Below are positions 2,649-28,431 of a stretch of 32,003 bases of DNA, in pieces. Both the position numbers and the translations under genes were made by a program. Positions within the stretch are counted from its first letter, which is position 1. Each line of letters starts with the position of its first letter. Origin of the DNA: a virus; the IMG/VR virus record IMGVR_UViG_3300021420_000097, positions 1 through 32,003 of that record, one strand, 5' to 3'. The notes below the pieces were generated by a model, which searched no databases, was not told where the DNA came from, and saw only the letters and a list, made by a program, of their open reading frames with translations.

Positions 2649-3386
2649 ATGGTCCAAATTGTCAATCAAACCATCCTTGGCGGCGGTTTTCGGCACTACT
2701 CGGGCCTCCTGCCCTCCGTACCGGCTGACGGCGATTCAGTGGCTCGGGCATCCGTGCGGCCCTTTCACCTTGCGCCGACAAACGCGCTTGCGATCTTTCG
2801 CGGTGACATTGTTGTTTTCAACTCTGCCACAATTGGCATACAGGGGGCTGGCGACCTTCCGGCCAACATTGGTGCTCCGTCCGTCACGAGCCTTGTAATT
2901 GGCAATGGCGGCGGTTCGTTGCTCGGCAACGCTTCGATGGCACCAAATGTTTCGCGATGGGTTCCGGGTGACACTACCAGCGTCATTACGGGCCTCGTAG
3001 TGGGCTTTGGCCCACTAACGCTTTACATGGCAAAAAACGGCTTTCAGTACATTCCTGCGTCCACTGAAGGGTGGGTTTTTGTCGAGACTGATCCGCAGGT
3101 CATGATGACTGCAACGATGCCTACCGTACCCGGTACTGCGTTCAATCTCGACTTGAACAGTGGTATTGATGTGAAGGCGAATGCCAGCTTCCAAAGTACG
3201 AGGTTCGGCATTTCAGGAATGTCGCTTGATCCGACTACGATCCAAACGACTTCGACATTGCCGTTGCGAATTATCAATTCGTCGGAGCAAATCGGAAACG
3301 ATCCGACAGCGGCCGGCTTTGTTGCACAGGTCATGTTCAACGGATCGCGTCATTATCGAGGCAGTGCTGCCTTCACTGCGGATTAA
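2649..3386 (+). CDS. Phage structural protein (hypothetical virion protein)
   Basis: A 245-aa protein with a strong ribosome site (AGGAGAAGG). The sequence is Gly/Ser/Thr-rich with alternating hydrophobic residues and is predicted to be all-beta, with few charges. There is no signal peptide. The beginning (QTILGGGFRHYSG) and the end (VMFNGSRHYRGSAAFTAD) share an 'HYxG' pattern. It heads the plus block of tail and virion genes, so a minor head or tail decoration role is likely. The exact family is not recognised. Confidence 0.75.
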   Translation: MVQIVNQTILGGGFRHYSGLLPSVPADGDSVARASVRPFHLAPTNALAIFRGDIVVFNSATIGIQGAGDLPANIGAPSVTSLVIGNGGGSLLGNASMAPNVSRWVPGDTTSVITGLVVGFGPLTLYMAKNGFQYIPASTEGWVFVETDPQVMMTATMPTVPGTAFNLDLNSGIDVKANASFQSTRFGISGMSLDPTTIQTTSTLPLRIINSSEQIGNDPTAAGFVAQVMFNGSRHYRGSAAFTAD

Positions 3387-3395
3387 GGAGCAAAC

Positions 3396-3971
3396 ATGTC
3401 ACGTCTTCTCGCGATTCTTCTCGCGGCAGCGTTGCCGATTAGTGACGCAATTGCGCAAACTGTCACTTCGCAGCCGACGTTTATTCAATCGCGGCAGTGG
3501 GCAGACTTGGGCAATGGCCCGCTTGATATTCAGCCGGTTGAAGGTAACGGCAGTCTTTACTCTTCGTCCGGAACCGGCATCGGCAGTACGTCGGGCTCGT
3601 CTACTAGTTTGACGCTGACTGCGGCTCCGGCAATTCAGCCGTGCGTCGGCTGCATCATTTCCGGATCGGGGATCACGTCGGGGACGACTGTTACTGCGTT
3701 TAACGGCGTTACGAACATCACACTTTCGGCGTCGATGACTGTGCCAGCTTCGTCCGCGATTGCGTGGGGGGCTGCGTGCCCTGCGGCAACGGCTGCAAAC
3801 GTTCCTGGCGTTGCACCAGGTACGATTACGCCACTGCAATTAAGCGCGCCGCTGCAGATACGTTCCGGTATGAACAACACATTTCCGCTGTACACACAGG
3901 CACGGCTTTGTGCATACGGCGCGCAACAGAACGGGTGGACGTTCCTGTACTTCGCGATTGGTGCCCACTAA
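3396..3971 (+). CDS. Secreted beta-rich tail-fibre-like protein
   Basis: A 191-aa protein behind AAGGAG. It begins with a classical Sec signal peptide (MSRLLAILLAAALPISDAIA, predicted cut before Q21). The mature part is Ser/Thr/Gly-rich. It contains a unit of the kind found in phage fibres (CIISGSGITSGTTVTAF, then NITLSASMTV), also seen in a related form in the tailspike at 15142. Three or more Cys residues could form disulphides in the periplasm. Fibre-like sequence with an export signal is unusual. The role may be virion-associated or host-surface; neither is proven. Confidence 0.75.
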   Translation: MSRLLAILLAAALPISDAIAQTVTSQPTFIQSRQWADLGNGPLDIQPVEGNGSLYSSSGTGIGSTSGSSTSLTLTAAPAIQPCVGCIISGSGITSGTTVTAFNGVTNITLSASMTVPASSAIAWGAACPAATAANVPGVAPGTITPLQLSAPLQIRSGMNNTFPLYTQARLCAYGAQQNGWTFLYFAIGAH

Positions 3972-3983
3972 GGATGTGAGTTG

Positions 3984-5072
3984 ATGCTGTGGATCGGGCT
4001 CGCCGTGTCGCTTTGTTACATTCCGGGCTTGACCGGAGCGTACATCGCGACGCAGTGGCCTTTGTTGGCCGTGATTTTGCCTTTTGGGCTGTTGCGGAGG
4101 GGACCGTTTACAGTTTTTCATTTGCTCGGGCTTCTCTTTTTTGATTATGCGGCAGTGCACATACTTTGGAGTCCTAATCCGTACGGTTCCGTCTATGGCG
4201 TGTGGTTGCTCGCCATTTCGGCGTTGGTTGTATGGTTTGGGACCACGTTGGAAGATCCGCGTGATTTATACAAAGGATTGGCTATCGGCGCCATTTTGTC
4301 GAGCTTCGTTGCCGTGCTGCAGTTTTTCGGTATTGGCGTCGTGCCCGTTACATCAACAATGCCCGCTGGCCTGTATGTCAATAGCGTCCAACAGGGTACT
4401 GTGCTTGCTCTTGTAGCGGTCGCGTTGATGACGGAGCGCATGTGGCCGTGGATTCCGCCATTGCTGCCCGGCATTTGGCTTTCGCACTCCCGCGGCGGTG
4501 CTATTGTTTTGCTGGTAGGATTGCTTTGCTGTTGTTCGCGTCGTTTGTGGATACCGGCAGGCGTTATTGCGATGGCAGCTTCGATTTACTTGTTTTATCC
4601 GCTTTCGCCGTCCGACAGTCAACGTCTGTACATATGGCACGTTGCATGGGATAACTTGACGCTGTTTGGCTTCGGTGCTGGGGCTTTCTTCAGTGTAGTT
4701 TTCATGCACGACGGCGTTACCTTGTTTCCGGAGTACGCTCATAATGATTTTCTGCAGTTTGCCTTCGAATTCGGCATCGGTGCGGTTCTTCCTGCGATTA
4801 TCATTGGTTATGCAGTATGGCGTACGGACGTTAAAGAATGGCCCGTCGTACTGGCGTTCTGTACAGCAGCGTGTTTTTCAATGCCGCTCTCCATGCCGAT
4901 CGCTGCGTTTCTTTCTTTGGTCGCTGTGGGGCGCGTTCTTCGTGCTCATGGTCTACATGGCAGTGAGCGCAATTATCGCGGATATGATTTCTTATCGTGG
5001 GATGACACGTGCCGACTGGCAACTCGCGGCCGAAATCTTTCCGTGGCATCGCAGTATTCAGCAAAAGGCTAG
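3984..5072 (+). CDS. O-antigen ligase/polymerase-like membrane protein (Wzy_C/WaaL type)
   Basis: A 362-aa polytopic inner-membrane protein with about 10 hydrophobic segments. Family signatures of the WaaL/Wzy O-antigen ligase fold are visible: LSHSRGG at ~166-172, the R-x-x-I-W pair at ~214-218, FGFGAGAF at ~229-236, and the periplasmic-loop motif EYAHNDFLQ at ~250-258 with the conserved His. In bacteria these enzymes join or polymerise undecaprenyl-linked sugar chains on the periplasmic face. A phage copy could alter lipopolysaccharide and block superinfection (inference). The ATG at 3984 with AAGGA at 9 nt is preferred over the TTG at 3981. The last ~40 residues look like out-of-frame sequence; see the overlapping ORF at 4948. 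Confidence 0.8.
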   Translation: MLWIGLAVSLCYIPGLTGAYIATQWPLLAVILPFGLLRRGPFTVFHLLGLLFFDYAAVHILWSPNPYGSVYGVWLLAISALVVWFGTTLEDPRDLYKGLAIGAILSSFVAVLQFFGIGVVPVTSTMPAGLYVNSVQQGTVLALVAVALMTERMWPWIPPLLPGIWLSHSRGGAIVLLVGLLCCCSRRLWIPAGVIAMAASIYLFYPLSPSDSQRLYIWHVAWDNLTLFGFGAGAFFSVVFMHDGVTLFPEYAHNDFLQFAFEFGIGAVLPAIIIGYAVWRTDVKEWPVVLAFCTAACFSMPLSMPIAAFLSLVAVGRVLRAHGLHGSERNYRGYDFLSWDDTCRLATRGRNLSVASQYSAKG

Positions 5073-5079
5073 GCAATGA
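4948..5079 (+). CDS. Overlapping small membrane ORF or frame-shifted tail of the O-antigen gene
   Basis: In the +1 frame over the 3' end of the O-antigen ligase-like gene there is an ORF that looks coding. It has a hydrophobic helix (GAFFVLMVYMAVSAIIADMI, which begins before the ATG) followed by DWQLAAEIFPWHRSIQQKAR. Its stop overlaps the next start as ATGA, the rule for this operon, whereas the ligase frame ends 3 bp before that start. It is either a separate gene from ATG 4948 (43 aa, weak ribosome site) or the true C-terminus of the ligase after a +1 shift near 4910-4930. Confidence 0.4.
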   Translation: MVYMAVSAIIADMISYRGMTRADWQLAAEIFPWHRSIQQKARQ

Positions 5080-5465
5080 GCGGCGTCGATAGTGCTAATC
5101 AATTTCCGAATAGCTTCATGGCTAAAGCCGTGAAGCTGGGCGTGTCTAGGTTTGTGTCTGACGATTATCCGAATCGAATTCAGCTTCTCGAACAGAACAA
5201 TGTCAGCATTGCCGTGGCGACTGGTTTGACCGTTCCGAGCGGTGCAACGTCGCCACCGGGGACGACCGTGAATAACATACCGACATATGCGGTTATTACA
5301 GCGATTGGCGGCCCGCTGTATGCCACTTATGACGGCTCGACGCCCAGTTCTGTAAATTATGCCGTGTTGCTTGCTATGGGTGCGTCATTGCCTGTACAGG
5401 GCGAGCAAGCGCTCGTGGCGATCAAAGTTCAGGGAACGACAATGTCCGTTAGTTATTGGAGCTGA
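5076..5465 (+). CDS. Small beta-rich structural protein
   Basis: A 129-aa protein with AAAGG seven bases before ATG. It is predicted all-beta, with TYAVITAIGGPLYATYDGST and a final MSVSYW strand. The style (YATYDGS, ALVAIKV, SVSYW) is that of small phage virion or decoration proteins. No enzymatic motif is present. It sits between the O-antigen gene and a coiled-coil membrane protein and is translationally coupled to the upstream frame. Confidence 0.65.
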   Translation: MSGVDSANQFPNSFMAKAVKLGVSRFVSDDYPNRIQLLEQNNVSIAVATGLTVPSGATSPPGTTVNNIPTYAVITAIGGPLYATYDGSTPSSVNYAVLLAMGASLPVQGEQALVAIKVQGTTMSVSYWS

Positions 5466-7513: not shown

Positions 7514-7839
7514 CGGTTTATGTGGACGACGTTCGGCATTGTTTCGGACGCATGATTATGTGCCACATGTGGGCAGATAACATTGCCGACTTGATGACGA
7601 TGGCGGATGCGATCGGCGTGCAGCGAAAATGGTTGCAACAACCGCCGAAAGCGTCATGGATGCATTTTGACATTAGTTTGGGAAAGAAGGTTCTGGCAAT
7701 AACAAAAGGTGCGATTCTTACTGACAAATACGGACCGGCCGAACATGTCGCGGGATTGCGGGGAGATTCGATGATGTTAGCGCAAATTGCGAATTGTCGT
7801 AAATTGTTGTTGCCTAATGTGATGCCATGGGCGGCATAG
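7510..7839 (+). CDS. DUF4031 family protein
   Basis: A 109-aa protein starting with GTG inside the upstream stop (GTGA). It matches the DUF4031 pattern closely: MTVYVDD at the start, R-x-x-x-C-H-M-x-A-D at ~15-25, then A-x-x-I-G-V-x-x-K-W-x-Q, a later H-x-D-I and K-x-x-A-I-x-x-G-A. This small family is frequent in phages and their hosts and has conserved His and Asp residues. A nuclease-like or metal-binding role has been guessed but its biochemistry is not known to me. It overlaps the next gene by 13 bp. Confidence 0.85.
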   Translation: MTVYVDDVRHCFGRMIMCHMWADNIADLMTMADAIGVQRKWLQQPPKASWMHFDISLGKKVLAITKGAILTDKYGPAEHVAGLRGDSMMLAQIANCRKLLLPNVMPWAA

Positions 7840-8459
7840 ACAACGGTTCGATCCAGAGCGGCGTCTTTTTTCAAGCCAAGCAATTTGGATCGCTTTTGCG
7901 TGGCAGTGGGCCGCCTGTGTCACAGGCTGGCGTTCTGGGTGATTTGTACGTAGATGTGCAGACGTGGAATTTGTATAGTAAGCGGTCGTCCGACACAGTA
8001 AGTGACGTAGATCCTTGGGGGCACTATATATTTGTCGTGCCGCCTACTTATCAATTACAATTGAAATGGTTCAGTACGTCGGCACCTGATGACAGCGTTG
8101 GCGTGACTGGCGATTATTGTTTGGCGTGGGCAGGTTTTGGAAACTATGGTTTGCAACCATTTATCTACGGACCGAAAGGCACCAACAATACATGGCCAGA
8201 AAACGGCAACGGCCCAAGCACGTTAATAGTCACAGGTGGCGTGTTTCCACTTGGGCTATCTGGCGAGGGTACGCAAGTCGCGTACAGCACATCAACTCAG
8301 TTGATTACTGCAGGGATTGTAGACGAGTACGTAGCGGCTACCCCAGTTGCGAATGTAATTGGCACGCCTGTCGGTCAGATTGGTTTGCGACAGCAGCCAA
8401 CGCCTGTTGCCGTTACGCTTAATACGCTGTACACGTTTGAGGATAGCCATGCCATATAA
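7827..8459 (+). CDS. Tail-fibre-like protein, long copy of a duplicated pair
   Basis: A 210-aa protein. The N-terminal ~135 residues are closely similar to the product at 8733 (NGxxQSGVxFQAKQFGSxLR, then GDLYVDVQTWNLYSKRS and VDPWGHYxF). The motif G-x-G-P-P...G-x-x-G-D-L-Y-x-D is a common phage fibre and tail module. This copy has an extra segment of about 65 residues after YGPK, then the shared ending VTLNxLYTxEDSH. No clear ribosome site is visible, so translation may depend on coupling to the DUF4031 gene. Confidence 0.75.
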   Translation: MGGIDNGSIQSGVFFQAKQFGSLLRGSGPPVSQAGVLGDLYVDVQTWNLYSKRSSDTVSDVDPWGHYIFVVPPTYQLQLKWFSTSAPDDSVGVTGDYCLAWAGFGNYGLQPFIYGPKGTNNTWPENGNGPSTLIVTGGVFPLGLSGEGTQVAYSTSTQLITAGIVDEYVAATPVANVIGTPVGQIGLRQQPTPVAVTLNTLYTFEDSHAI

Positions 8460-8736
8460 GTACAATCACATTGCGGACAATGTTGCAGCACAAACCATAT
8501 TTGAGCGTAACATGCCGGATCTTATTAGTTGTCTTTTATCGGGGGCGTCTAGCGAAGCTGGGTGCGGTTGTCATTCATTACAAAAGCATGACGATGGCAT
8601 CTTAATTTCGCGCGGGACTGCTGAATTTATAGTGCGAAGATTAAAAAGTCAGGCAGCGCTTGCCGAAGTTGAAGTTGCTTTAGCCATGGCAAATGCTAAA
8701 ATTTCGGCATTGCATCAACAGAATGGCGAATCATGA
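8449..8736 (+). CDS. Hypothetical 95-aa protein between the duplicated pair
   Basis: The ATG at 8449 follows GAGGA and overlaps the previous gene by 11 bp; the stop overlaps the next start as ATGA. The protein is helical with Cys and His residues in the middle (GAGCGCHS-type cluster near residue 39-42) and a C-terminal amphipathic helix (AALAEVEVALAMANAKISAL). It lies between two paralogous fibre-like genes, so it may have been inserted during or after the duplication. The function is unknown. Confidence 0.65.
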   Translation: MPYKYNHIADNVAAQTIFERNMPDLISCLLSGASSEAGCGCHSLQKHDDGILISRGTAEFIVRRLKSQAALAEVEVALAMANAKISALHQQNGES

Positions 8737-9173
8737 GCGGGTTTGATAACGGCACGATGCAGAGCGGCGTCTACTTTCAGGCGAAGCAGTTTGGCAGTAT
8801 TCTGCGCGGTAACGGGCCGCCCGTCCCGCAAGCCGGCGTTGTCGGTGATCTGTACATAGACGTTGCGGCGTGGAATCTGTACAGTAAGAGATCAACGGAC
8901 AGCGGTGGCGACGTTGATCCGTGGGGGCATTATTTGTTCGCCGTGCCGGCCACTTACCAGCCGGCTTTGAAATGGTTTGGCACTGCAGCGCCAACCAACG
9001 ATATCGGCGTGAACAACGATTACTATTTGTTATGGGCTGGGTTCGGGAATTACGGGCTTAATCCTGTGTCTATATATGGACCAAAAGCTGCAGGTGCGTG
9101 GCCAAGTACAGCAAACCCGATTACTGTCACGCTTAATTCGCTGTATACGGCTGAAGATAGCCATAGTGTATAA
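8733..9173 (+). CDS. Tail-fibre-like protein, short copy of a duplicated pair
   Basis: A 146-aa paralogue of the product at 7827, aligned over its full length except for the ~65-residue insertion in the longer copy. It contains the G-D-L-Y-I-D and VDPWGHY blocks and the ending VTLNSLYTAEDSHSV. The start is coupled to the preceding gene by ATGA. It is likely a virion tail or appendage component. Two diverged copies may recognise different partners (inference). Confidence 0.75.
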   Translation: MSGFDNGTMQSGVYFQAKQFGSILRGNGPPVPQAGVVGDLYIDVAAWNLYSKRSTDSGGDVDPWGHYLFAVPATYQPALKWFGTAAPTNDIGVNNDYYLLWAGFGNYGLNPVSIYGPKAAGAWPSTANPITVTLNSLYTAEDSHSV

Positions 9174-9371: not shown

Positions 9372-9979
9372 CTGACTTCGTGGCGTTGCTTCGCAGTACG
9401 GGCGGCGGCGTTCGTGAAGAACAAATGCCGGGCCTTGATTTTGTCGTGGCTGCTTTAGGTCGTGCTGGTTTCATAACTTTGGCAGTTCAGGCTACCGCAC
9501 CAATATCTAATCAAGCCGCAACGGCTTGGTTTCAACCCGCGTCGCCATCGTGGAGCGCCGAGGGCATTCTGTACCTGTGGAATGCAGCGCTTTCGGTTTA
9601 TCAGCCCGCCACGCCCGCTTTGTGGACGCAGTATTTTTTGCCAATTGCATCTGGTTATTTGTTTCAGAAGATAACCGGGACGGGGCAGTCTATCGTTGCT
9701 GGCACGTCACTGGCAGCTATACAGCGCGCCGCGCCGTCCACTACAGCGATCATACTCCCGACGCTTGCCAGTCAATTCGCCAGCGGGAAGAAGTTGCAGA
9801 TTGTGGATTTTTCCACGGCCGTCACGAATCACGTTATTACTCTAAGCGTGCCTGAGATAGTTTCGTCACCAACTATTATGGGGCAATCAACGCTACAAAT
9901 GCTTTCCACAGCTGTACAGCTTGGAGGAGTCATGTTACAGCCGTCCCCTGATCTCAATACATGGGTAATAGCGCCATGA
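9353..9979 (+). CDS. Tail-fibre or structural protein
   Basis: A 208-aa protein with AGG six bases before ATG. It is rich in Ala, Ser, Thr and beta-forming residues (AATAWFQPASPSWSAEGILY). The second half reads as a beta-strand repeat region, with a closing GGVMLQPSPDLNTWVIAP that resembles phage fibre C-termini. No export signal is present, unlike its downstream neighbour. Its position next to a fibre-like secreted protein supports a tail role. Confidence 0.65.
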   Translation: MSYNSLTDFVALLRSTGGGVREEQMPGLDFVVAALGRAGFITLAVQATAPISNQAATAWFQPASPSWSAEGILYLWNAALSVYQPATPALWTQYFLPIASGYLFQKITGTGQSIVAGTSLAAIQRAAPSTTAIILPTLASQFASGKKLQIVDFSTAVTNHVITLSVPEIVSSPTIMGQSTLQMLSTAVQLGGVMLQPSPDLNTWVIAP

Positions 9980-11244
9980 AAATGCTTCGTTTGATTCCCA
10001 TCGTTCTTGCATGCCTCATTGCGATTCCAGCACTCGCGCAGTGGCAAACGCCGAATCATTCTATTCCTGTCGGTCGTGATATCGGCGTCATCGGTTTTGG
10101 TAGTGTCGGACCGTGTAATTCCGGCGTGCCAATCATTGGGGCCGGGGCTTCTGCCGATCCGGCGTGCACTGCGCTTTCTTTAGGTGGTGCAGGTGTTACG
10201 GGGAACTTACCTCCTGCTAATCTTAATTCCGGCACCAACGCATCCGCCACGACGTTTTGGCGTGGCGATGGTGCATGGTCGAGCGTTCTGTCTTCTACGC
10301 TTGCCAATTCCGCCCTTAGTTTCAGCATGCCAGTCAACTTGCAGCTTAATGCTAGTGTAATAGCGAGCAATTTGACGATTGCTGTCTTAGGGAACAACGG
10401 TAGCGCTCCGTCGGCAGCCAATCCGGTGTTGATTCCGTTCCGCGACGCGACAGTTGCAAACGGCGATCCAGTAATTTTGTCGCTTCAAGCGCCGTTGAAT
10501 ATTTCGGCTACTTCGGGTTTTGCAGTAGGGTGCAACAATGCCCAAATGTGTCGATTGTGGGTCGCGGCAATTAATAATGCCGGTACTCCATCTTTGTGCG
10601 TATACAATGCGCGCTCCGCACCGGCAGGAGCGTTTGCCAGTCTGATTCCTCTCAATGAAAGTAGGGTCTATACGTCTTTTGCAGGATCGGGAGGCGGTGC
10701 TAACGCACAAGTGCTGTATTGTACGGCCGTATCTGTCACAAATTCGCCAATTAGAGTGCTTGGGTATGTAGACGTACAAGAAGCTACTGCAGGAGCTTGG
10801 CTTACAGGTCCGACTACTGTGCAATTGGCTGGTCCAGGCATTCCCATAGCCGGCCAAACGGTTCAAGAAATGTGGGCGAGTACTGCGGTCACTCAATCTA
10901 TTACTTCAGCTACTCCTGCCGCCAGTACTAATATGACGTTAAATTTGGTTCCTTTCAGTGCATCCGATATAGTTGCATGCTCAGCCTCAACATGGCAAAA
11001 TCCCGGGGCAGCGGCGAGTTTATTGATTGCCCAGATTTATCGCGGTGCCACGGCTTTAGGTCAACCGATACAGACGGGTGCATCTTCTGGCCTTCCTGCT
11101 GTGTCTGCTATTTCCGTGGGTCCGGTGTTTGATATACCAAATTCCGTTTCTTCGCAGACTTATGCGCTGTTTTTTGCCGGTAACGGCACCAACGCGAGTT
11201 TGGTCGAGAACGGCACTTTCACTTGTCGAGAGCTACAAGGATGA
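9976..11244 (+). CDS. Tail-fibre protein with a Sec signal peptide
   Basis: A 422-aa protein. The ATG at 9976 overlaps the previous stop (ATGA) and directly starts a signal peptide (MKMLRLIPIVLACLIAIPALA, predicted cut before Q); an ATG at 9961 would lengthen it. The mature part carries the widespread phage fibre motif TGNLPPANLNSGTNAS, then TTFWRGDGAWS, at ~75-105. The rest is Ser/Ala-rich beta sequence. The fibre motif marks it as a tail protein family member, yet it should be exported to the periplasm. It lies just upstream of the endolysin. Confidence 0.8.
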   Translation: MKMLRLIPIVLACLIAIPALAQWQTPNHSIPVGRDIGVIGFGSVGPCNSGVPIIGAGASADPACTALSLGGAGVTGNLPPANLNSGTNASATTFWRGDGAWSSVLSSTLANSALSFSMPVNLQLNASVIASNLTIAVLGNNGSAPSAANPVLIPFRDATVANGDPVILSLQAPLNISATSGFAVGCNNAQMCRLWVAAINNAGTPSLCVYNARSAPAGAFASLIPLNESRVYTSFAGSGGGANAQVLYCTAVSVTNSPIRVLGYVDVQEATAGAWLTGPTTVQLAGPGIPIAGQTVQEMWASTAVTQSITSATPAASTNMTLNLVPFSASDIVACSASTWQNPGAAASLLIAQIYRGATALGQPIQTGASSGLPAVSAISVGPVFDIPNSVSSQTYALFFAGNGTNASLVENGTFTCRELQG

Positions 11245-12902: not shown

Positions 12903-14441
12903 GTGTCCGTTCCATGGGAGCGGCCTGTTCGATTGAGTAAAGAGAGCGTACGGAATGTTCTTCTTTTCAATTTCGATCGGTATCGTGAGACATTTCTGCG
13001 TGTTCGCCCTCCCATAGGTGGCGAACGCATTCCGTTTATTTTGAACAGCATGCAGCGCGTTTTGCATGCCAGCATTGAAAAAGAACACGCCAAGTTCGGC
13101 ATGGTGCGCGCTCTGGTCCCCAAAGCTCGGCGGATGGGCGTTAGTATGTACATAGGTGGCCGTTATTTCCATCGCACCGCAACGCAGGCCGGCCGACGTG
13201 CGCAAGTTGTTGCGCACCGATCTGATAGCGCCACGAACCTGCATCGGGAGATCAAAGAGTTTTACAATGGGCTTCCTGCATGCGCGCGTCCGCATTTGGG
13301 CGCATCCAATGCACGTGAGTTGATTTTTGACGTACTTAAATCACTGTACAAAGTCGCGTCGGCGGAAGGTGGCGACATTGGCCGTTCCGATGATTTTCAT
13401 TTGCTGCATCTGTCGGAAGCTGCATTTTTTGACAACACAGAAGACCTGTCATCCGGCTTGCTACAAACTGTACAGAACCTTGCAGATACAGAAATCATTA
13501 TCGAAAGTACGGGTAACGGACAATCAGGCATGTTCTACAGCATGTGCCAGGAAGCGCACGCCGCACGGAATGAAGGACCGTGGCGATTGTACTTCTTACC
13601 GTGGCCATTAATGCCTGAATACCGCATGACAGTTCCCGCCGGTTGGAAAGCTCCGAAAGAATTCGAAGACTACGCTAAATTTCATGCGCTTGATCAGGAG
13701 CAAACATATTGGTTTTGGCTGGAGAACTACACGATTGCCGCAATGAATGGCGGTCACCCCGGAAGCATTCATAGGCTGACGAGGCAGGAGTATCCGGCTA
13801 CGTACGATGAATGTTTCATGGCGGATAGCACGCTGGACTTTTTCTCAGCGTCTATTGTGCAGGCTGCCATGATGCGCAGGCCGAGTCCGTCGGCCGGTGC
13901 GCTTAAGCTTCTTTGCATCGATCCGGCCGGCGATGGACAGGACAAGCCTTTCGTGTGCGACCGGCAAGGTTCCGCGATTGGGGCTCGGGTCTGGGGAGAG
14001 CTAGCTAATAGGGACTACAATGTGCAAGCAGATTGGCTTGTACAGACTTTCGAGCGTTTCAGCATGGATGCGATTCTTGTGGACATTACCGGGACTGGCA
14101 AGGGGCTTGCGGATGCGTTGCGGCTTCGCATGCGGCGGTTTGGGGTGGAAAAAGTGGTAGCAGTGAATTTCGCTTGGGGTGCTCTTAACGGTACGCTGTA
14201 CGGCAATCGGCGTGCAGAGCTGCATGATAAATTTCAGCGATGGTTGCAAAACGACGTGTCGATGCCAAATGACAAGCAGTTGCAAGAGGAAGCGGCGGCG
14301 TACAAATGGGGTCAAGGCGGTTGCCGGCGTGATGAAAAAGCGCGACTGTTTATGACGCCGAAAGAGAAAATTCGTGCGGAGACTGGTCGATCACCCGATC
14401 GGCTTGATGCCTGCGTTGTTTCAATGGCCATGGAGGGCTAA
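12903..14441 (+). CDS. terL: Large terminase subunit (TerL)
   Basis: A 512-aa DNA-packaging motor. The ATPase N-domain has a divergent Walker A (K-A-R-R-M-G-V-S, ~74-81), a Walker B-like L-L-H-L-S-E-A-A (~167-174) and the coupling motif ESTGNG (~201-206). The RNase H-like nuclease C-domain shows Asp residues in LLCIDPAGDG (~337-344) and ILVDITGTGKG (~391-401) and in the final RSPDRLDACVVS. The start is GTG with GGAGGT nine bases upstream. It docks on the portal and cuts concatemers. It follows the lysis genes, and no clear small subunit is adjacent. Confidence 0.95.
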   Translation: MSVPWERPVRLSKESVRNVLLFNFDRYRETFLRVRPPIGGERIPFILNSMQRVLHASIEKEHAKFGMVRALVPKARRMGVSMYIGGRYFHRTATQAGRRAQVVAHRSDSATNLHREIKEFYNGLPACARPHLGASNARELIFDVLKSLYKVASAEGGDIGRSDDFHLLHLSEAAFFDNTEDLSSGLLQTVQNLADTEIIIESTGNGQSGMFYSMCQEAHAARNEGPWRLYFLPWPLMPEYRMTVPAGWKAPKEFEDYAKFHALDQEQTYWFWLENYTIAAMNGGHPGSIHRLTRQEYPATYDECFMADSTLDFFSASIVQAAMMRRPSPSAGALKLLCIDPAGDGQDKPFVCDRQGSAIGARVWGELANRDYNVQADWLVQTFERFSMDAILVDITGTGKGLADALRLRMRRFGVEKVVAVNFAWGALNGTLYGNRRAELHDKFQRWLQNDVSMPNDKQLQEEAAAYKWGQGGCRRDEKARLFMTPKEKIRAETGRSPDRLDACVVSMAMEG

Positions 14442-14708: not shown

Positions 14709-14996
14709 ATGGAAACGGAGAGTTCTGAGAGCGCAATTCAAGTGCCTGTCAAGCCGAAACCGAAGAAGAAGGCGAAACCTGCCAAGCTGAAACCGAAGAA
14801 GGCTAAGGCGAAGCCTGCGACAAAACGTCGCACGCATAAAAACGGGGCTGCACGCAAGCCTTCTGTCGTACTGCGTGCCTGTCGCATGGATATTCGTTTG
14901 ACGGCCGCGGAGAGAGAAAAGCTCACGCGCAAGGCTGCAGCGATGCGGCGAACCGTGACGAGCATCGTTGCCGAGCTTATCGAGAAGATGAAATAG
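14709..14996 (+). CDS. Histone H1-like tail fused to a ribbon-helix-helix domain
   Basis: A 95-aa protein with AGGAG nine bases before ATG. Residues ~14-50 are almost only Lys, Pro, Ala and Arg (for example KPKPKKKAKPAKLKPKKAKA), like eukaryotic H1 or bacterial H1-like tails. Residues ~58-95 read as a ribbon-helix-helix: strand RMDIRLT, helix AAEREKLTRKAAAMR, turn, helix SIVAELIEKM. The likely role is DNA binding, either as a repressor or in genome compaction (inference). Its stop codon shares a base with the tRNA gene. Confidence 0.75.
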   Translation: METESSESAIQVPVKPKPKKKAKPAKLKPKKAKAKPATKRRTHKNGAARKPSVVLRACRMDIRLTAAEREKLTRKAAAMRRTVTSIVAELIEKMK

Positions 14997-15079
14997 CTCC
15001 CGTGGCGAAATGGGAAACGCGAGAGACTTAAAATCTCTTTGCATTAGCAGTGCAGGTTCGAATCCTGTCGGGAGCACCA
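14996..15079 (+). tRNA. tRNA-Leu (UAA)
   Basis: The acceptor stem GCTCCCG (14996-15002) pairs exactly with CGGGAGC (15069-15075). The D arm is GCG...CGC. The anticodon stem AGAGA/TCTCT holds the loop CTTAAAA with anticodon TAA. A long variable arm, as expected for tRNA-Leu, precedes the T arm (CAGG-TTCGAAT-CCTG). The CCA end is encoded (15077-15079). The first base is also the last base of the upstream TAG stop codon. It would read UUA and UUG, and TTG codons appear frequently in these genes. Confidence 0.93.
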
Positions 15080-15141: not shown

Positions 15142-18100
15142 TTATTGTCCGTTCTGATGGTACTGAGCCGTCGCTGAGGCGTCAAGTGCTGTGCAGGTGC
15201 CGGCGGAAATTGCCCATGCCGTATAGTCACCTGCGGTGATTGCTGGATTGGTGACTGATCCTGCAACGGCAGCTCCGCTTGCCGTTAAGGTTACTGTTCC
15301 GATTGTGATCGGTGTTGCGGTGCAAGTTGTGCTCGTTCCGCATTCGTAAAAAGTGATCGTTGGGTTTCCTGTGCAGGTGAATGAACTAGCGGACCCTATT
15401 AAATTGTCTACAGTTGATGATTTTACCCATTTTTGGAATTGAGCAATAGTATTAACTATGCTTGCCTGCAATCCAGGGGCATATGACGTAGACAATTGCG
15501 GGCCTGGTCCTACGGTACGTCCGCTCAGTTCATAGGGAAAGATTGGATACAGACCGCTTGCTGTGGCGGCGGACCCTAGCGTTATTGAGCCTGGATTGGC
15601 GGCAATGACTGTCGCATATTGATTGCCGCCGGCATTGCTTGTCGGCCATGGTGAGCTACCAGTGCCGAACGTAAACGGCGCAAGTACTAGATCGCCGTTC
15701 TTGTAGAATGTTCCTAGATCGGTGCCGACTACGCCATTGCCATTGCTGACGTTGCTTACGGTCGTACTGCCATTAGCAAATTGACCATATTCCAGTTGTC
15801 CTGGAATCACTACGCCGGTTTTTATGAGCGCGGTATTGCCTGAGTTCAGGAGCGGCGTTGCATTGAGGTTGCTCGCCCACGTATTCGTTCCAGGCGCCAC
15901 CGTCATATTGTTTTGTTGAACGGCTGTGACGACCGATGACGTAGTTGGTGCGAACGTGCAGTTAGTCGCGTCGCTTGCTGGTGAGCCGACGGAAGTTACG
16001 ACAAATATCGTGTTACTGTTAAAATGGTACAGAATATCTCCGGGAGCTATTACGTAAACAATTCCGTTGGTTCCTCCTTGGTAAACACTGCAATAATTGA
16101 ATGTCATCGTATCGCCAGCGTAAGCCGGCAACACTGAAATTTGAGTACCGGGAGAGGACGGAAATACAAGCTGTGCCGGAGCTGGTACCGTCATTTGCCA
16201 AGAGCGGCCCTGTGAATCCACGTACGTCTTCATGTCTTGTGTCATCGGGAACCGATTGGTTAGGGTTCCGCGCGTGAGCACATCAGCATGTGGGTACGAA
16301 CTCAGGCTCGAACTGGCAGTCATTGCCTCCGCGCCGACTGATTGACTGTTGTTGACCGTATAGGTGCCATTGCCGCCGCCGCCAGTGCCGAAAGCAGTTA
16401 TGCACGTATTTGCGGTAACTCCTGCGCCAGTAAATATGCAGGACCCGATTGCCAGCGATCCATTAGTGACACCGCCGGTAACCGTCAGCGTAAGGCTGGA
16501 TATGGCTCCCGTAAAGCTCGCAGTTGAATAATATGAACCGAGATAGTATTGTGGCACAGACCAATTATTGATGGCGCTAGAATTGTAACGCGGCGCCCCG
16601 GCAAACATACCGCCAGAGTAATTGATCGCTTGCAACTGCATGGGAGTTACCGCTCCCGCTACAGCGCCCTGGATGCCGCCCCCATTTAAGACAGCAGTAG
16701 TTTGTGCTCCGCCACAAAACAGATTGCTGATGCGCTGGTTTCCATTGTAATTGACGCCGGTCATGCGAATTTCGGCGTTTGTGGCAGTTATGAAACACGC
16801 TGGAATTTGACCGTGCAACGTTTCAGTTAGATTAAACGTGCTGTTTTTCAAATCGACTAAATTATTGAAGGATGTATTGGAAACGAAATTACCAACTCGT
16901 ACGCATCCCTCACAATATATTTCCGAAATATCGAGAGGGCCGGATAGTCCAAGGTTTCCAAAGTTAAACATCTGGTAGGCCGGCGAGCAACCGATGTTGC
17001 TGATTGGGCCATTGAATTCACCCGATTGCATTCCGAGCGTAGTTTGGTCGATTACGGTGTAATTGAAGCCGCAAATGATGTTGCTGATATTGACGTTGCG
17101 GCTTTGTGAATTGGTTACGCTGAGCCCGTAGGGATTATATGCAATGTTGAGGTTTGTTATTTTAGCAAAATCCCCATTGTTTTGGGTGTTCAAACCAACG
17201 GCAAACGCAACTGCAAATCCGTCAATGTTTACGTTTCGCAGTTCAATATCCGACGTAACCGATTTGCCGTATTGGGCGCTTAGTCCTGTCCACGCCGGAA
17301 ACGTCAGATTTGGGTACGCAGGCGATGGCTGTGTGCCGGCATAGGCATCCACTGTTACCGCTGCCCATGGTGCATGCTGGGTAAATCCGCCAGATGTTCC
17401 GGACGGTGTGAATTCCGGCGGCAGCCAATCATTTACATTCGACGATAAATTAGAGCCGCTGCCCATTGTGAAAAACAGGTAGTTATACAGTCGGCCCCAA
17501 ATTGCAACGCCATACAGACCGACCTGCCGTCCGGATGTGAAATCGATTGCCGGTCTATCTGTTTGGGTTGGGTAGAGAGTACATCCGGGCAGTTGATTGT
17601 ATCCGGCACGATACCCACCGGATAGACGCAATCCATAAAGGCCTCCGTTCGCTCCTTGCGCTCCCCAGCCGACGTGAAGAGTATCTGTGATTTTGAAATT
17701 TCCGAGGCAATAGAAATCAGCGACTCCCGACTGCATTCCGTAATCAAACATGGCTTGGAAGGCGGCCGTGTTGTTGGTACCGACAACGGCGTCTCCCCAC
17801 GCAACCGAAGGAATCGTCAACATCGTCGGTACGGTTTGCGACGTGACAACGTTTCCTGAACCGACGCTGACGACAGTTGTGCCGCTTGGTATGATAGCTA
17901 GAGAGGTGGCTTGGCGTGTCGCCCAGCCAATGGTTGAAATGTGCTGTCCGGCAGCCATCCCGTTTGTGCTTGAAACAGTAAGCAGCGTCGTGCCGTTCGC
18001 AGTTGCCGTCCAGCCATACGCCCCGGCAATTGGCGATCCGCCATCGGAAAGGGCGCCCCACTGTTTTACGTCTACGGCGCCGGAGGGAAATGCAGCGATC

Positions 18101-18423
18101 CAGCACTTGCCGTCCGCGCTCGGAACTTGTGCGCCGCCGTCACCGGCTCCTGCGTTGAACGTGCAAGCGCTTGCACTCGGATTGTAGAATAGCGGCGGCG
18201 CACCGTTGCCGTTGCCGTAGGTCGTGCGCCAAACGCCAGTGGGATAGGCCGCTGTAGAAGCCAATGTGAGGGCTGTTAAGTTGGCAACCCCTCCTGCACC
18301 ACCGGTACCGCCGCCCCCTCCTGGATTGTTGGGGAGTTGGCTGCCACCAAAATTAGGGAGTCCCTGTGCTAGAGCGGCGACGCAAAACAGCAGTAACAGA
18401 ATAAATGGAACTATCCGTTTCAT
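15142..18423 (-). CDS. Tailspike (pectate-lyase-type beta-helix) with a Sec signal peptide
   Basis: A 1093-aa protein. The ATG at 18423 follows AGGTGA and begins a signal peptide ([19 protein letters not shown], predicted cut before Q), then a Gly-rich linker. At ~105-220 is the tailspike head motif [13 protein letters not shown] ... [11 protein letters not shown], which opens a right-handed beta-helix such as those of capsule- or O-antigen-degrading spikes. Asn/Ser-rich helix coils fill ~220-620. Around 660-720 is a fibre repeat with [20 protein letters not shown]. The C-terminus is small and Thr/Ala-rich. It probably binds or cleaves surface polysaccharide. The export signal is unusual for a virion spike. 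It is the last gene of the minus block. Confidence 0.85.
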
Positions 18424-18427
18424 TGCG

Positions 18428-18517
18428 TCACCTCGTTCTGCCTGCAGCCCAGATAATAGTCGCCCACCCAAACAGAAGAGCGAGTATCATCAATGGACCG
18501 CCCAGTTCTGAACACAT
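18428..18517 (-). CDS. 29-aa membrane peptide before the tailspike
   Basis: ATG at 18517 is preceded by AAGGG at 10 nt. The product is [10 protein letters not shown], then a hydrophobic helix ([15 protein letters not shown]), then GRTR. The stop is 4 bp before the tailspike ATG, and the tailspike ribosome site (AGGTGA) includes this gene's stop. It may be a coupling leader or a true small membrane protein. The function is unknown. Confidence 0.5.
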
Positions 18518-22789: not shown

Positions 22790-23722
22790 GTGCAAGTCAT
22801 CGATCGAAGTTTGCAGCCCTCGCAGTATTGGCCCGGCCTCTATGCGTTGTTCGGCCTGGATTATGAGAGGCTGATGCCGATCTATCCGCAATTTTTTGAT
22901 TCGAAGCCCAGTGAAAAAGCCTTTGAGGAATTTATGACGGAGCGCGCCGGCCTTGGGCTGGCCGTGCAGCAACCGGAATTGGAGCCCGTTCAGTTCGACG
23001 TGCCGAACGAGGGCTATCGGACGCAGGTCACGCACGCAAGCTACGGTCTTGCCGTGGCAATTTCACGTGAGGCGAAGGACGACGATCTATACGAAGACGT
23101 TGGTTCCCGCATGATGAAGGAGTTGGCGTTTTCGGCCCGGCAGACTGAGGAGTACATTGCCCATGCGCCATTGCAAGTTTCAGTGGACGCGGTGAACGGC
23201 GTTCGAGCTGATGGCGTTCCACTTGGATCTGCGGCGCATCCGACCGCCGTTGGCGCGCAATCGAATTTGCTGGTGGCTGCGAACGTTTCCGAACTGGCCT
23301 TCGAGAACGCGGTCATCCAAATCTCGTACACGCGCAACGGCCGTGGTTTTGTGATCAATACCCTGCCTAAGCGTGTCATCCTCTCTCCAGAAAGCGGTCC
23401 GGAAACGCGGCGCATCCTCGGATCGCCGCTGCAGTGGAACGCTCAGACCAACAACATCAACGTTTTGCGCGCCACCAATGCACTGCCGGAAGTAGTCGAA
23501 ACGCCGTATCTCGTGGACAAAGACAACTATTTTATCCAGACTTCCGAGCAAGACAAAGACAACGGCCAGGGCTTCACGTTTTGGGAGCGCTCGCAGCTCG
23601 AAACCCGCGAAGACAGCAATTGGTCAAATCAAGCGTCGCTCATCGCATTGTGGTTCCGCTGCGCCGCATCTGTCATTGATTGGCGCACCGTGTTCGTAAG
23701 CCCGGGTGCTGATAACGCCTAG
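22790..23722 (+). CDS. Major capsid protein
   Basis: A 310-aa protein starting with GTG, with a strong ribosome site (AGAGGAG). The pattern fits Mu-T/HK97-like phage capsids: an N-terminal ALFGLDYERLMPIYPQFFDS, a long loop-and-strand region with GYRTQVTHASYGLAVAISRE, a spine-helix-like DLYEDVGSRMMKELAFSARQ and later NTLPKRVILSPESGPETRRI. The end is W-x-x-Q-A-S-L-I-A-L-W-F-R-C, then DWRTVFVSPGADNA. No decoration domain is fused. The gene lies on the opposite strand from portal and scaffold. Confidence 0.85.
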   Translation: MQVIDRSLQPSQYWPGLYALFGLDYERLMPIYPQFFDSKPSEKAFEEFMTERAGLGLAVQQPELEPVQFDVPNEGYRTQVTHASYGLAVAISREAKDDDLYEDVGSRMMKELAFSARQTEEYIAHAPLQVSVDAVNGVRADGVPLGSAAHPTAVGAQSNLLVAANVSELAFENAVIQISYTRNGRGFVINTLPKRVILSPESGPETRRILGSPLQWNAQTNNINVLRATNALPEVVETPYLVDKDNYFIQTSEQDKDNGQGFTFWERSQLETREDSNWSNQASLIALWFRCAASVIDWRTVFVSPGADNA

Positions 23723-26001: not shown

Positions 26002-26294
26002 GCGACGCTAAAGTTACGTTTTTAACATTTGATGGCGAACCAGCTGAATTCGGTAAAGAAGTGTATTTTGAGTTTAAGTGTCCAAAACATCCTGTTAACA
26101 GGTGCGGGGGGCTAATTATACGCGGTAGGGGGCGCGACATTCCACAGCGTACGTGGATGTGGGATGGTAACCGAAAAGCGCCAACTTTTTCGCCGTCAAT
26201 TAATTGTCGAAGCTGCCCCGGAAAATGGCACGGTTATATTGAAAGCGGGCGCTGTGTAAATGCCCAAAAACAAGACGAGCCGGAATCCGAGTAA
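25998..26294 (+). CDS. Cys-rich phage protein (DUF6527-like)
   Basis: A 98-aa protein with ATG 25998 in an ATGA overlap. It contains FEFKCPKHPVNRCGGLIIRG, TWMWDGNRKAPTFSPSINC and CPGKWHGYIESGRC. The five Cys with nearby His residues suggest metal binding. The T-F-S-P-S-I pattern followed by C-x2-x-W-H-G-Y-I-x-x-G resembles the DUF6527 family of phages and proteobacteria. The function is unknown. It lies between the connector genes but is probably an accessory insert. Confidence 0.65.
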   Translation: MSDAKVTFLTFDGEPAEFGKEVYFEFKCPKHPVNRCGGLIIRGRGRDIPQRTWMWDGNRKAPTFSPSINCRSCPGKWHGYIESGRCVNAQKQDEPESE

Positions 26295-27730
26295 TGTCCG
26301 TTATCAATATTCTAGGCTCTTTTCTCGATCCAAACAGTCTTGATCAGGGCAGCGGGAAGCTAGTCAACGTGCGCGTCGTGGCGCGTGCGCAGGAAGAGGG
26401 CCGGGAGGCGCAAGTGCGCTTCATTGGCGCCCCAGGCCTTGATACTGTTTGTCGCCCTACTGCTTCGCCGTGTTTAGCACTGTGCCATGCTTTGGAAACT
26501 GTATGGAGCGGACATGCAGACGGTTCGATATGGTCCGGCGTAGAGACTGGTATACCTACGCTACAGGGTTTCGTTACACTTAATCCAATATTGCCCATTC
26601 TGCGCCTGGCAGAAGATCGTACAGCGCTCGTGATCGCTACAAACGCCAACGCTATAAATCCGACGCTGGCCGGCACGGGGTACACCGCAACTCTGGCAGG
26701 CGTCGTGAATGCGGGCTTAGATGCGTCAATCAATTTTGATCCGTCCGCAGTTGCAATCTTGGAAAACTTCACAGTTTGGGGCGGCGCTAGTAACTTTTAC
26801 GCCAACCAAGATAGCAAAATGTTCAGTTCGGTTGCATTGCAGCCGGCGAACGTGCCGGGCAATAATTTTGCGACGAAGGAAGCGCGAGCCGACAAACTTG
26901 TGGATTTGGCAGTATCCGGTCGAGTCCTGTGGCCGCTTGGCGCCCGATCACTCGAACAATGGTATAATCCCGGCGGCGCTACGGATTTTGCTTTCAGCTC
27001 TTATCCGAACTCGCTCATATCCGTAGGACTTGCTGCGCGTCTATCGCTCGCTATAATACGCGATGCCATTATGTTCGTCGGAACTGACCGCCGGATTTGG
27101 CTATGTACGGGACAGACCGGACAGGCAGTATCGCCAGCGTGGGTTGATTTGCTTCTTCAGCAGCTATCATTACCACAGTTATCAACGCTGACTGCTTACG
27201 CGTACGGACAAGGCGGAAGTGATTTTTACGTACTTACATTGCCTGGCCAATGGTCCCTTGAGCTGGCGGCTTCGTCCGGTGTTTGGTCATATCGCCAGTC
27301 GCCCTTCCGTGCGGACCATGCTGGACGGTGCGCCACTGAACATGATGGTGGTATTACCTATGTTGGACTCGATACCGGTTACGTCTGTACATTGGACTTG
27401 AACAGTGCGTTAGAGCCCGCGGGGACGATGACGCGTCTTATCCAATCGCCATGGGTAGGCAGTCAAGAAATGCGGCAAGCGTTTGATGCTATCGACGTAG
27501 CGTCGCCCATGGGTCCTGCGGCGGGAACATTTCAGTTTGATTGGTCTGAACAATTTCCGGCCGTGTGGCGTGGCATGCGTCTGATTAACATGCCTGCAAC
27601 TGGTCAACAGCGTGCAATTGCGCGCGTCATGGGTACAGGGCGGCGACGCATATTCCGTTTGCAATACAATGGTACGCATGCGCCGTTTACGATCGATGAA
27701 ATGTATGCACGTACGTCACCGGGTACGTAA
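26294..27730 (+). CDS. Packaged DNA stabilisation protein (P22 gp10-like)
   Basis: A 478-aa protein. The start overlaps the upstream TAA (TAATG). The family pattern is visible: N-terminal GAPGLDTVCRPTASPCL, then the central LVDLAVSGRVLWPLGARSLE, QWYNPGGATDFAFSS and the I-x-V-G-L-A-A-R-L-S block (~215-250), followed by beta repeats (RDAIMFVGTDRRIWLCTGQT). P22 gp10 plugs the head after packaging and binds the adaptor. The neighbouring gp4-like gene supports this. Confidence 0.85.
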   Translation: MSVINILGSFLDPNSLDQGSGKLVNVRVVARAQEEGREAQVRFIGAPGLDTVCRPTASPCLALCHALETVWSGHADGSIWSGVETGIPTLQGFVTLNPILPILRLAEDRTALVIATNANAINPTLAGTGYTATLAGVVNAGLDASINFDPSAVAILENFTVWGGASNFYANQDSKMFSSVALQPANVPGNNFATKEARADKLVDLAVSGRVLWPLGARSLEQWYNPGGATDFAFSSYPNSLISVGLAARLSLAIIRDAIMFVGTDRRIWLCTGQTGQAVSPAWVDLLLQQLSLPQLSTLTAYAYGQGGSDFYVLTLPGQWSLELAASSGVWSYRQSPFRADHAGRCATEHDGGITYVGLDTGYVCTLDLNSALEPAGTMTRLIQSPWVGSQEMRQAFDAIDVASPMGPAAGTFQFDWSEQFPAVWRGMRLINMPATGQQRAIARVMGTGRRRIFRLQYNGTHAPFTIDEMYARTSPGT

Positions 27731-28431
27731 TGGTACAGAAACTCCCGCCGCCGCCCAAGATTGCTAAGATCGATCCAGCATTGAACCGCTGGTTTCTTGA
27801 ATTGACAGGCCTCTTGAATGGTCAAGGCGATGCCACGCTTACGGGCGTACCGACCGCGCCTACCGCACCGCTTCTTACGAATACCAATCAGATCGCGACT
27901 ACCGCATTCGTGATCCAGAATACCGCCAGTAGCCCGGCAACTGTCATACCGTTGATGGACGGCGTGGGAGCTGTCGGCGTTTCGACTAAGTATGCTCGTC
28001 AGGATCATGTCCATCCGACCGACACGTCACGAGCCCCTTTGGCATCGCCGATACTCACGGGCACTCCCAAAGCTCCGACGGCAGTACCGCTTACGGACAA
28101 CACGCAGATAGCGACTACCGCCTACGCGGATACTGCCGTGGCTGTGGAAACCACGCGAGCGGAGGCCGCGGAGACGCTGTTGGCTCCGCTCGCATCGCCA
28201 GTGCTCACGGGCGCCCCTACTGCGCCTACCGCGGCCGCGGGGACCAATACAACTCAGCTTGCGACTACTGCCTTCGTACAGGCACGTGGGGGCGCTTTGC
28301 ACAACGGTACGGGAGCGCCTGCAGCCGGGCTGGGTGCGGTAGGAGATTGGTACGGAGACGTGGCTGGTGGCGTTGGTGCTCGTGTTTGGATCAAGACTGG
28401 AGTGTCTGCGTGGACAGCGTTCCCGTTCTAA
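27730..28431 (+). CDS. Tail fibre protein with three sequence repeats
   Basis: A 233-aa protein. The start overlaps the upstream stop (TAATG). An N-terminal ~35 residues (KIDPALNRWFLELTGLLN) may bind the tail. Three fibre repeats then follow, each T/V/I-L-T-G-x-P-x-A-P-T-A ... T-Q-I-A-T-T-A-F/Y, joined by helical or loop segments such as KYARQDHVHPTDTSRAPLAS. The C-terminus (HNGTGAPAAGLGAVGDWYGD ... AWTAFPF) has the G-x-x-G-D-x-Y motif shared with the pair at 7827/8733. The role is a tail fibre or collar component. Confidence 0.85.
   Translation: MVQKLPPPPKIAKIDPALNRWFLELTGLLNGQGDATLTGVPTAPTAPLLTNTNQIATTAFVIQNTASSPATVIPLMDGVGAVGVSTKYARQDHVHPTDTSRAPLASPILTGTPKAPTAVPLTDNTQIATTAYADTAVAVETTRAEAAETLLAPLASPVLTGAPTAPTAAAGTNTTQLATTAFVQARGGALHNGTGAPAAGLGAVGDWYGDVAGGVGARVWIKTGVSAWTAFPF
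27835..28278 (+). repeat. Three degenerate repeats in the tail fibre gene
   Basis: Copies of about 78 bp lie at 27835-27912, 28050-28127 and 28201-28278. Each encodes the motif LTG-P-APTA...TQIATTAF. The first two are 215 bp apart and the last two 151 bp. The DNA is similar but diverged. These are in-frame fibre repeats, not a replication or recombination site. Confidence 0.8.

Follow-up and report, generated by a model that had tools for sequence, protein, structure and literature searches.

Why should a phage without a visible integrase carry, among its virion genes, a gene for a membrane protein with the signatures of the O-antigen ligase WaaL? The window, i.e., the whole stretch of DNA that was analysed, corresponded in full to the 32,003 bases of the IMG/VR record IMGVR_UViG_3300021420_000097. 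A second record, IMGVR_UViG_3300050821_007552 (52,374 bases), matched the window at 99.99% over all but the window's first 15 bases. The window spanned the cut point of this longer record (window 14095–14116), and the match across its ends indicates a phage genome of about 52 kb. Since 22 bases are common to both ends, the 52,374-base record probably represents a complete genome that was assembled as a circle. Relatives of the terminase were present at 33 loci, including 12 contigs of at least 50 kb (about 50–55 kb) which were picked by terminase without regard to the gene under study. Eleven of these 12 near-complete relatives were fetched whole (G009 was left out), and seven of the 11 records had matching ends of 17–127 bases. 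The original prediction had located the gene in a virion gene block. Terminase, capsid, tail-fibre and head-closure genes were indeed found in the window (Table 1), whereas the nearest neighbours encode secreted fibre-like proteins with a putative virion role.

Table 1. Positions of the features of the 32,003-base window that are discussed in the text.
Feature	Position	Strand	Remarks
Conserved gene upstream of the partner/enzyme pair	2649..3386	+	Homologues in 11/11 fetched records
Directly upstream gene, class 1 partner	3396..3971	+	191 aa; N-terminal Sec signal peptide; secreted fibre-like
Putative WaaL-fold (Wzy_C) membrane glycan transferase	3984..5072	+	362 aa from ATG; alternative TTG start at 3981
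Arg170 codon (SRG motif)	4491..4493	+	Aligned with WaaL Arg191; R in 14/15, H in L048
Arg214 codon (RLYIW)	4623..4625	+	Aligned with WaaL Arg265; invariant, 15/15
His253 codon (AHND)	4740..4742	+	Aligned with WaaL His313; invariant, 15/15
Next downstream gene	5076..5465	+	Start 3 bases past the enzyme stop
Neighbour genes	7827-8459 and 8733-9173	+	N-terminal halves closely similar; apparently a tandem duplication
Fibre/tailspike-like gene	9961-11244		Signal peptide
Terminase	at 12903
tRNA-Leu (anticodon TAA)	14996-15079	+	Between terminase and tailspike-like gene
Tailspike-like ORF	15142-18471	-	Signal peptide
Capsid gene	at 22790

The three signatures noticed at the outset, LSHSRGG, R-x-x-I-W (in the form RLYIW) and AHNDFLQ, were all present in the product of the ORF. 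The Pfam Wzy_C model (PF04932), which had been suggested as a check, matched this product with an E-value of 1.2e-5 and a score of 25.5 bits, below the curated cut-off of 31.7. It also matched 14 of the 15 aligned family members, with a best E-value of 2.2e-9. Judged from the sequences, the Wzy_C match is beyond chance. Relatives of the enzyme were absent from PHROGs, from BFVD at E ≤ 0.001 and from INPHARED in tblastn searches with the window enzyme (best E 3) or the L057 enzyme as the query. No NCBIfam model was matched by the window enzyme (P0001) at E ≤ 10. PDB sequence searches with P0001, A1 and A2 gave nothing credible, and hhalign found no match between A2 and one E. coli WaaL sequence.

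The structural comparison was more informative. Folding from the single sequence gave a useless model (pLDDT 44.8), whereas the model built from 15 aligned sequences reached a pLDDT of 80.8 and a pTM of 0.81, with residues 325–362 at low confidence. A structure failing to align with the WaaL/Wzy_C fold had been named beforehand as a refutation. In Foldseek, WaaL (7tpg) was the sole PDB match at E ≤ 0.001 (E 4.5e-6, probability 1.00), and VIA-align superposed the model on 7tpg with a Z-score of 19.4 over 298 residues (rmsd 4.2). The next rows were FtsW and RodA, far weaker at Z-scores of 8.0–9.8; these SEDS proteins share the GT-C_B fold class and have an Asp where the enzyme family has the His. 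The VIA structure list is without Wzy or PglL entries and says nothing about those. WaaL is described as having two phosphate-binding arginines and a catalytic histidine. The three residues R191, R265 and H313 of WaaL aligned with R170, R214 and H253 of the phage protein, and the AHND motif is common to both. The WaaL/Wzy_C fold and the GT-C_B superfamily class of the enzyme are thus well supported. Differences from WaaL (CAZy GT121) were the identity of approximately 16%, the length of 362 residues compared to 403 in 7tpg and 419 in E. coli WaaL, and a gene neighbourhood devoid of LPS-core genes. One family member, L048 (2481-3563), showed SHAG instead of SRGG, which places a His at the first catalytic Arg, with the other motifs kept.

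The protein had been described as having 10 membrane spans. We assigned 12 membrane helices on the predicted model, the same number as in WaaL, with R170, R214 and H253 all on the periplasmic side and H253, like the catalytic His of WaaL, in the long periplasmic loop. Lys and Arg made up 135 of 611 residues (22%) in the assigned cytoplasmic loops versus 48 of 1360 (3.5%) in the periplasmic loops, and 29 of these 48 were located in the two catalytic columns. The modelled topology would therefore follow the positive-inside rule, with a periplasmic active site. The donor side of the enzyme, a periplasmic lipid-diphosphate-linked glycan, is well supported.

The enzyme family was defined by scanning viral contigs repeatedly with alignments of its relatives. 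The gene was found in 36 viral loci (35 and L047) with identities of 25–100%. Cellular relatives were remote only: a genome scan returned three remote matches, and in one phylum remote matches (E ≤ 1e-6) occurred in seven of 299 genomes. As far as searched, the family is virus-specific. Among the 12 terminase-picked relatives, seven carried the enzyme, by the family alignment and by PF04932 alike (five of the seven whole-record Pfam matches were above the curated cut-off); the absence from the other five means that the enzyme is dispensable. In three pairs of close relatives, the dN/dS ratio was 0.10 for the window and L003, 0.12 for L039 and L040, and 0.20 for L057 and L058. The enzyme gene is under purifying selection, and its product is apparently a maintained, competent enzyme.

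These observations bear on two readings in which the phage would draw no benefit from catalysis. The gene might be a recent acquisition from a host, useless to the phage. Its site is optional, and in the enzyme-less genome G003 the flanking genes are adjacent, the homologue of the next downstream gene directly following that of the class 1 partner. Nevertheless, a virus-specific family kept across relatives of 25–92% identity at such dN/dS values, recurrent beside exported-protein genes and with remote cellular relatives only, makes a useless passenger scarcely credible. Alternatively, the protein could be a decoy which, by non-catalytic binding of the Und-PP glycan or of the host ligase or polymerase, blocks the assembly of the surface glycan. 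Small phage proteins, for instance Iap of phage D3, are described as blocking the host polymerase, but a mere binder would need neither the catalytic residues kept in nearly all members nor purifying selection, and we regard a decoy as very improbable.

We propose that the enzyme is a transferase that acts on host-made lipid-linked glycans in the periplasm and remodels the glycan on the surface of infected cells, as either a ligase or a polymerase; we consider this proposal about equally likely to be right or wrong. GT2 glycosyltransferases were found in none of the 12 genomes, so that the enzyme must rely on host-made donors. The fold, residues, topology, conservation and gene neighbourhood of the enzyme are computational results; for its activity, donor, acceptor, timing and benefit, we infer the following course. 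The host undecaprenyl-diphosphate carrier would supply the glycan on the periplasmic side, where R170 and R214 would hold the diphosphate and H253 would activate the acceptor. The enzyme would probably be produced along with the secreted fibre-like protein encoded next to it. Ligation or polymerisation of host-made units would then change the glycan on the cell surface during infection, the likely gain being fewer competing adsorptions and less progeny loss on receptor-bearing debris. Virulent phages such as T5, with its Llp protein, block receptors and thereby protect their progeny.

Precedents for envelope remodelling exist. The Wzy-beta protein of phage D3 (AF165214) is reported to act in seroconversion. 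For Acinetobacter, excerpts of PMC13228068 describe prophage Wzy proteins that alter the capsule, the candidates being one EpsG-family and one Wzy_C protein. These proteins, Wzy1Ph and Wzy2Ph, resemble the present enzyme, by their description in that source, as surface-glycan enzymes encoded by phages, near a tailspike depolymerase gene; they differ in belonging to integrase-bearing prophages with an altered capsule as the outcome. Further published background was taken from excerpts of PMC10920833, PMC10134795 and PMC12373910.

The enzyme could specifically be an O-antigen or exopolysaccharide polymerase like D3 Wzy-beta, which would create a new linkage between host repeat units and hence a true serotype conversion. 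This is a sub-case of the remodelling of the surface glycan. D3 Wzy-beta and its relatives in phi297, PP9W and VarioGold are likewise phage-encoded Wzy_C membrane proteins, and D3 Wzy-beta aligned its Arg/Arg/His with those of the enzyme; the residues cannot, as a consequence, separate a ligase from a polymerase. The excerpts of PMC13228068 also attribute a change of capsule linkage to the Acinetobacter prophage proteins, and the donor side is common to both activities. Against this, D3 Wzy-beta showed no detectable sequence kinship with the family (7.1 bits for the best domain and no tblastn match), the similarity to the whole D3 group being non-significant, and its HND motif is without the Asp present in the enzyme family, in WaaL and in most cellular relatives. 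A published rule assigns Asp or Glu to the polymerases of the clan and His to the ligases, which would speak against a polymerase here, but Wzy-beta itself contradicts this rule; having a His, it led us to drop His versus Asp/Glu as a criterion. We view the polymerase as possible but rather improbable. Of the O-antigen ligase-like character originally predicted, the WaaL fold and the three catalytic residues stand, whereas a ligase in particular is partly supported only, next to a polymerase or a protein oligosaccharyltransferase, and the receptor change suggested along with it is hypothetical.

The remodelling reading, in either form, has several points against it. The precedents for conversion are mostly temperate, yet a Phage_integrase match was found in one of the 12 genomes only (G010, 51079-51468 on the minus strand, E 6.8e-5, 35 bits summed in frame), and G010 has no WaaL-fold gene. 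The 11 others had none visible, Resolvase was matched in none of the 12, and 23 proteins encoded in the part of the 52,374-base record outside the window yielded matches to replication and methylase families but none to an integrase; the early remark that no integrase was visible thus holds for the whole record of this phage. A missing integrase match would in itself be no proof of a virulent lifestyle. D3, VarioGold and FBPa19, in contrast, carry an annotated integrase, and D3 carries iap and an acetylase in addition. The five relatives without the enzyme, the His of L048 at the first Arg and the reliance on host donors also count against this reading. Finally, a simple receptor conversion does not predict a strong tie to exported proteins.

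This tie is a new finding of the present analysis. The partner gene in the window ends 12 bases before the enzyme ATG; its product matched phrog_21413 weakly (E 0.094), and the same stretch of phrog_21413 was matched by the tailspike-like ORF with an E-value of 3.6e-12. A signal-peptide gene was located immediately upstream of the enzyme in 29 of 35 testable loci. By the same test, a heuristic of our own, the surrounding 12.5 kb had 42 exported-looking genes among 123, compared with 54 among 522 elsewhere; these counts include clear false positives. Genes for exported proteins are common throughout the block and the slot before the enzyme appears richer still, a contrast that is indicative as the upstream gene was chosen between at most two ORFs. 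Because the loci are mutually related, Fisher values for the pairing are not taken as proof. Among the pairs, we counted L068 and L070, whose upstream signal-peptide ORF adjoins or overlaps that of the enzyme, as well as L050, L039 and L067 despite gaps of approximately 60–80 bases; L055, L056, L060, L061, L062 and L066 were not counted, and L046 was left out with its enzyme locus cut off at the contig end. The phage of the window entered the count once, as L002, and the window was not added to it a second time. The partners fell into seven unrelated kinds, namely families of 13 and 11 members and five singletons. They are rich in Ser and Thr (20–33%), and in eight of the 10 class 2 pairs inspected the stop and start codons overlapped (TAATG or TGATG).

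Such a pairing suggests another acceptor. The enzyme could be a dedicated O-linked oligosaccharyltransferase, similar to TfpO/PilO or TfpM, transferring the host Und-PP glycan to the exported fibre-like protein encoded upstream, which would yield a secreted or virion-associated protein with a sugar coat. In addition to the position, diversity, overlaps and composition of the partners, this would agree with the known specific O-oligosaccharyltransferases, whose genes adjoin that of the substrate according to excerpts of PMC12645811. TfpO/PilO, TfpM and PglS have a WaaL-like domain and a gene beside that of an exported protein, as is the case here. PglL_A and Wzy_C_2, missing from TfpO and TfpM in the same excerpts, were absent among the families listed for the 15 members at E ≤ 10. 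However, the partners of these enzymes are pilins, whereas the phage partners are fibre-like proteins with signal peptides, with no sequon found and sometimes without an enzyme. The family of the window's partner was present in 11 of the 11 fetched genomes, five of which are without the enzyme, and the enzyme was missing from eight of 20 close loci of the class 2 family with room to tell. No C-terminal sequon was supported in the partners: a terminal Ser was rejected as such since class 1 partners end with His (12 of 13) or Trp (one) and the Ser ends of class 2 partners are also seen without the enzyme. Moreover, exported proteins are frequent in the cassette in any case. We consider this oligosaccharyltransferase possible, though rather improbable. 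The broader proposal, that a family of uncultured phages uses its own O-oligosaccharyltransferase to coat many unrelated exported fibre-like phage proteins with the host's lipid-linked surface glycan, is similarly speculative. If it were true, this would be, to our knowledge, the first case of a virus encoding a system for en bloc glycosylation of proteins in the bacterial periplasm.

Gene order differs among the known phage cases. In D3, the upstream gene orf30.5 had no signal peptide by eye, unlike the partners described here. In the temperate phage VarioGold (PMC9658991), which has a different Wzy_C protein, an upstream signal-peptide gene ends 14 bases before the Wzy_C gene. The locus had been called unusual. 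This does not hold for a phage Wzy_C protein as such, given D3, phi297, PP9W and VarioGold, but it does for a distinct family that is kept in many phages lacking a visible integrase, beside exported-protein genes. By sequence comparison, this family appears distinct from D3 Wzy-beta, belonging to phages without visible integrase and tied to exported proteins. The phage Wzy_C enzymes that we found in print are from a few temperate phages, whereas the present family is kept across many uncultured phages of approximately 50 kb and had no member in the phage reference sets that we searched. In titles and opening abstracts of the open-licence literature on phage-encoded ligases or oligosaccharyltransferases, viral contigs and exported tail proteins, the family was undescribed. 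The enzyme and its exported partner together suggest that the phage alters the sugars on the host surface or on the proteins that it exports itself. Both the editing of the envelope by a phage during infection and the viral glycosylation of periplasmic proteins become directly testable.

Sec signal peptides were also seen at the start of large fibre- or tailspike-like proteins, often several in tandem; examples are the class 1 partner and the two fibre/tailspike-like genes of the window listed in Table 1, as well as genes in G006, G007, G008, G010 and L133–L146. Some of the fibre-like starts looked Tat-type, with twin arginines in G008 and G010. Export signals on virion-like proteins would be odd. 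A phage-encoded outer-membrane porin near the terminase was considered and found unsupported: PF13505 was matched in none of the 12 genomes, and the four proteins tested gave no Pfam match at E ≤ 0.01. Signal-peptide proteins starting with AAD(M/L) were observed near the terminase in G002 (26959-27753), G003 (33285-34013), G005 (17705-18376) and G012 (26194-26892). These starts resemble what we take to be the leaders of rhizobial outer-membrane proteins, possibly a hint at the host and nothing more.
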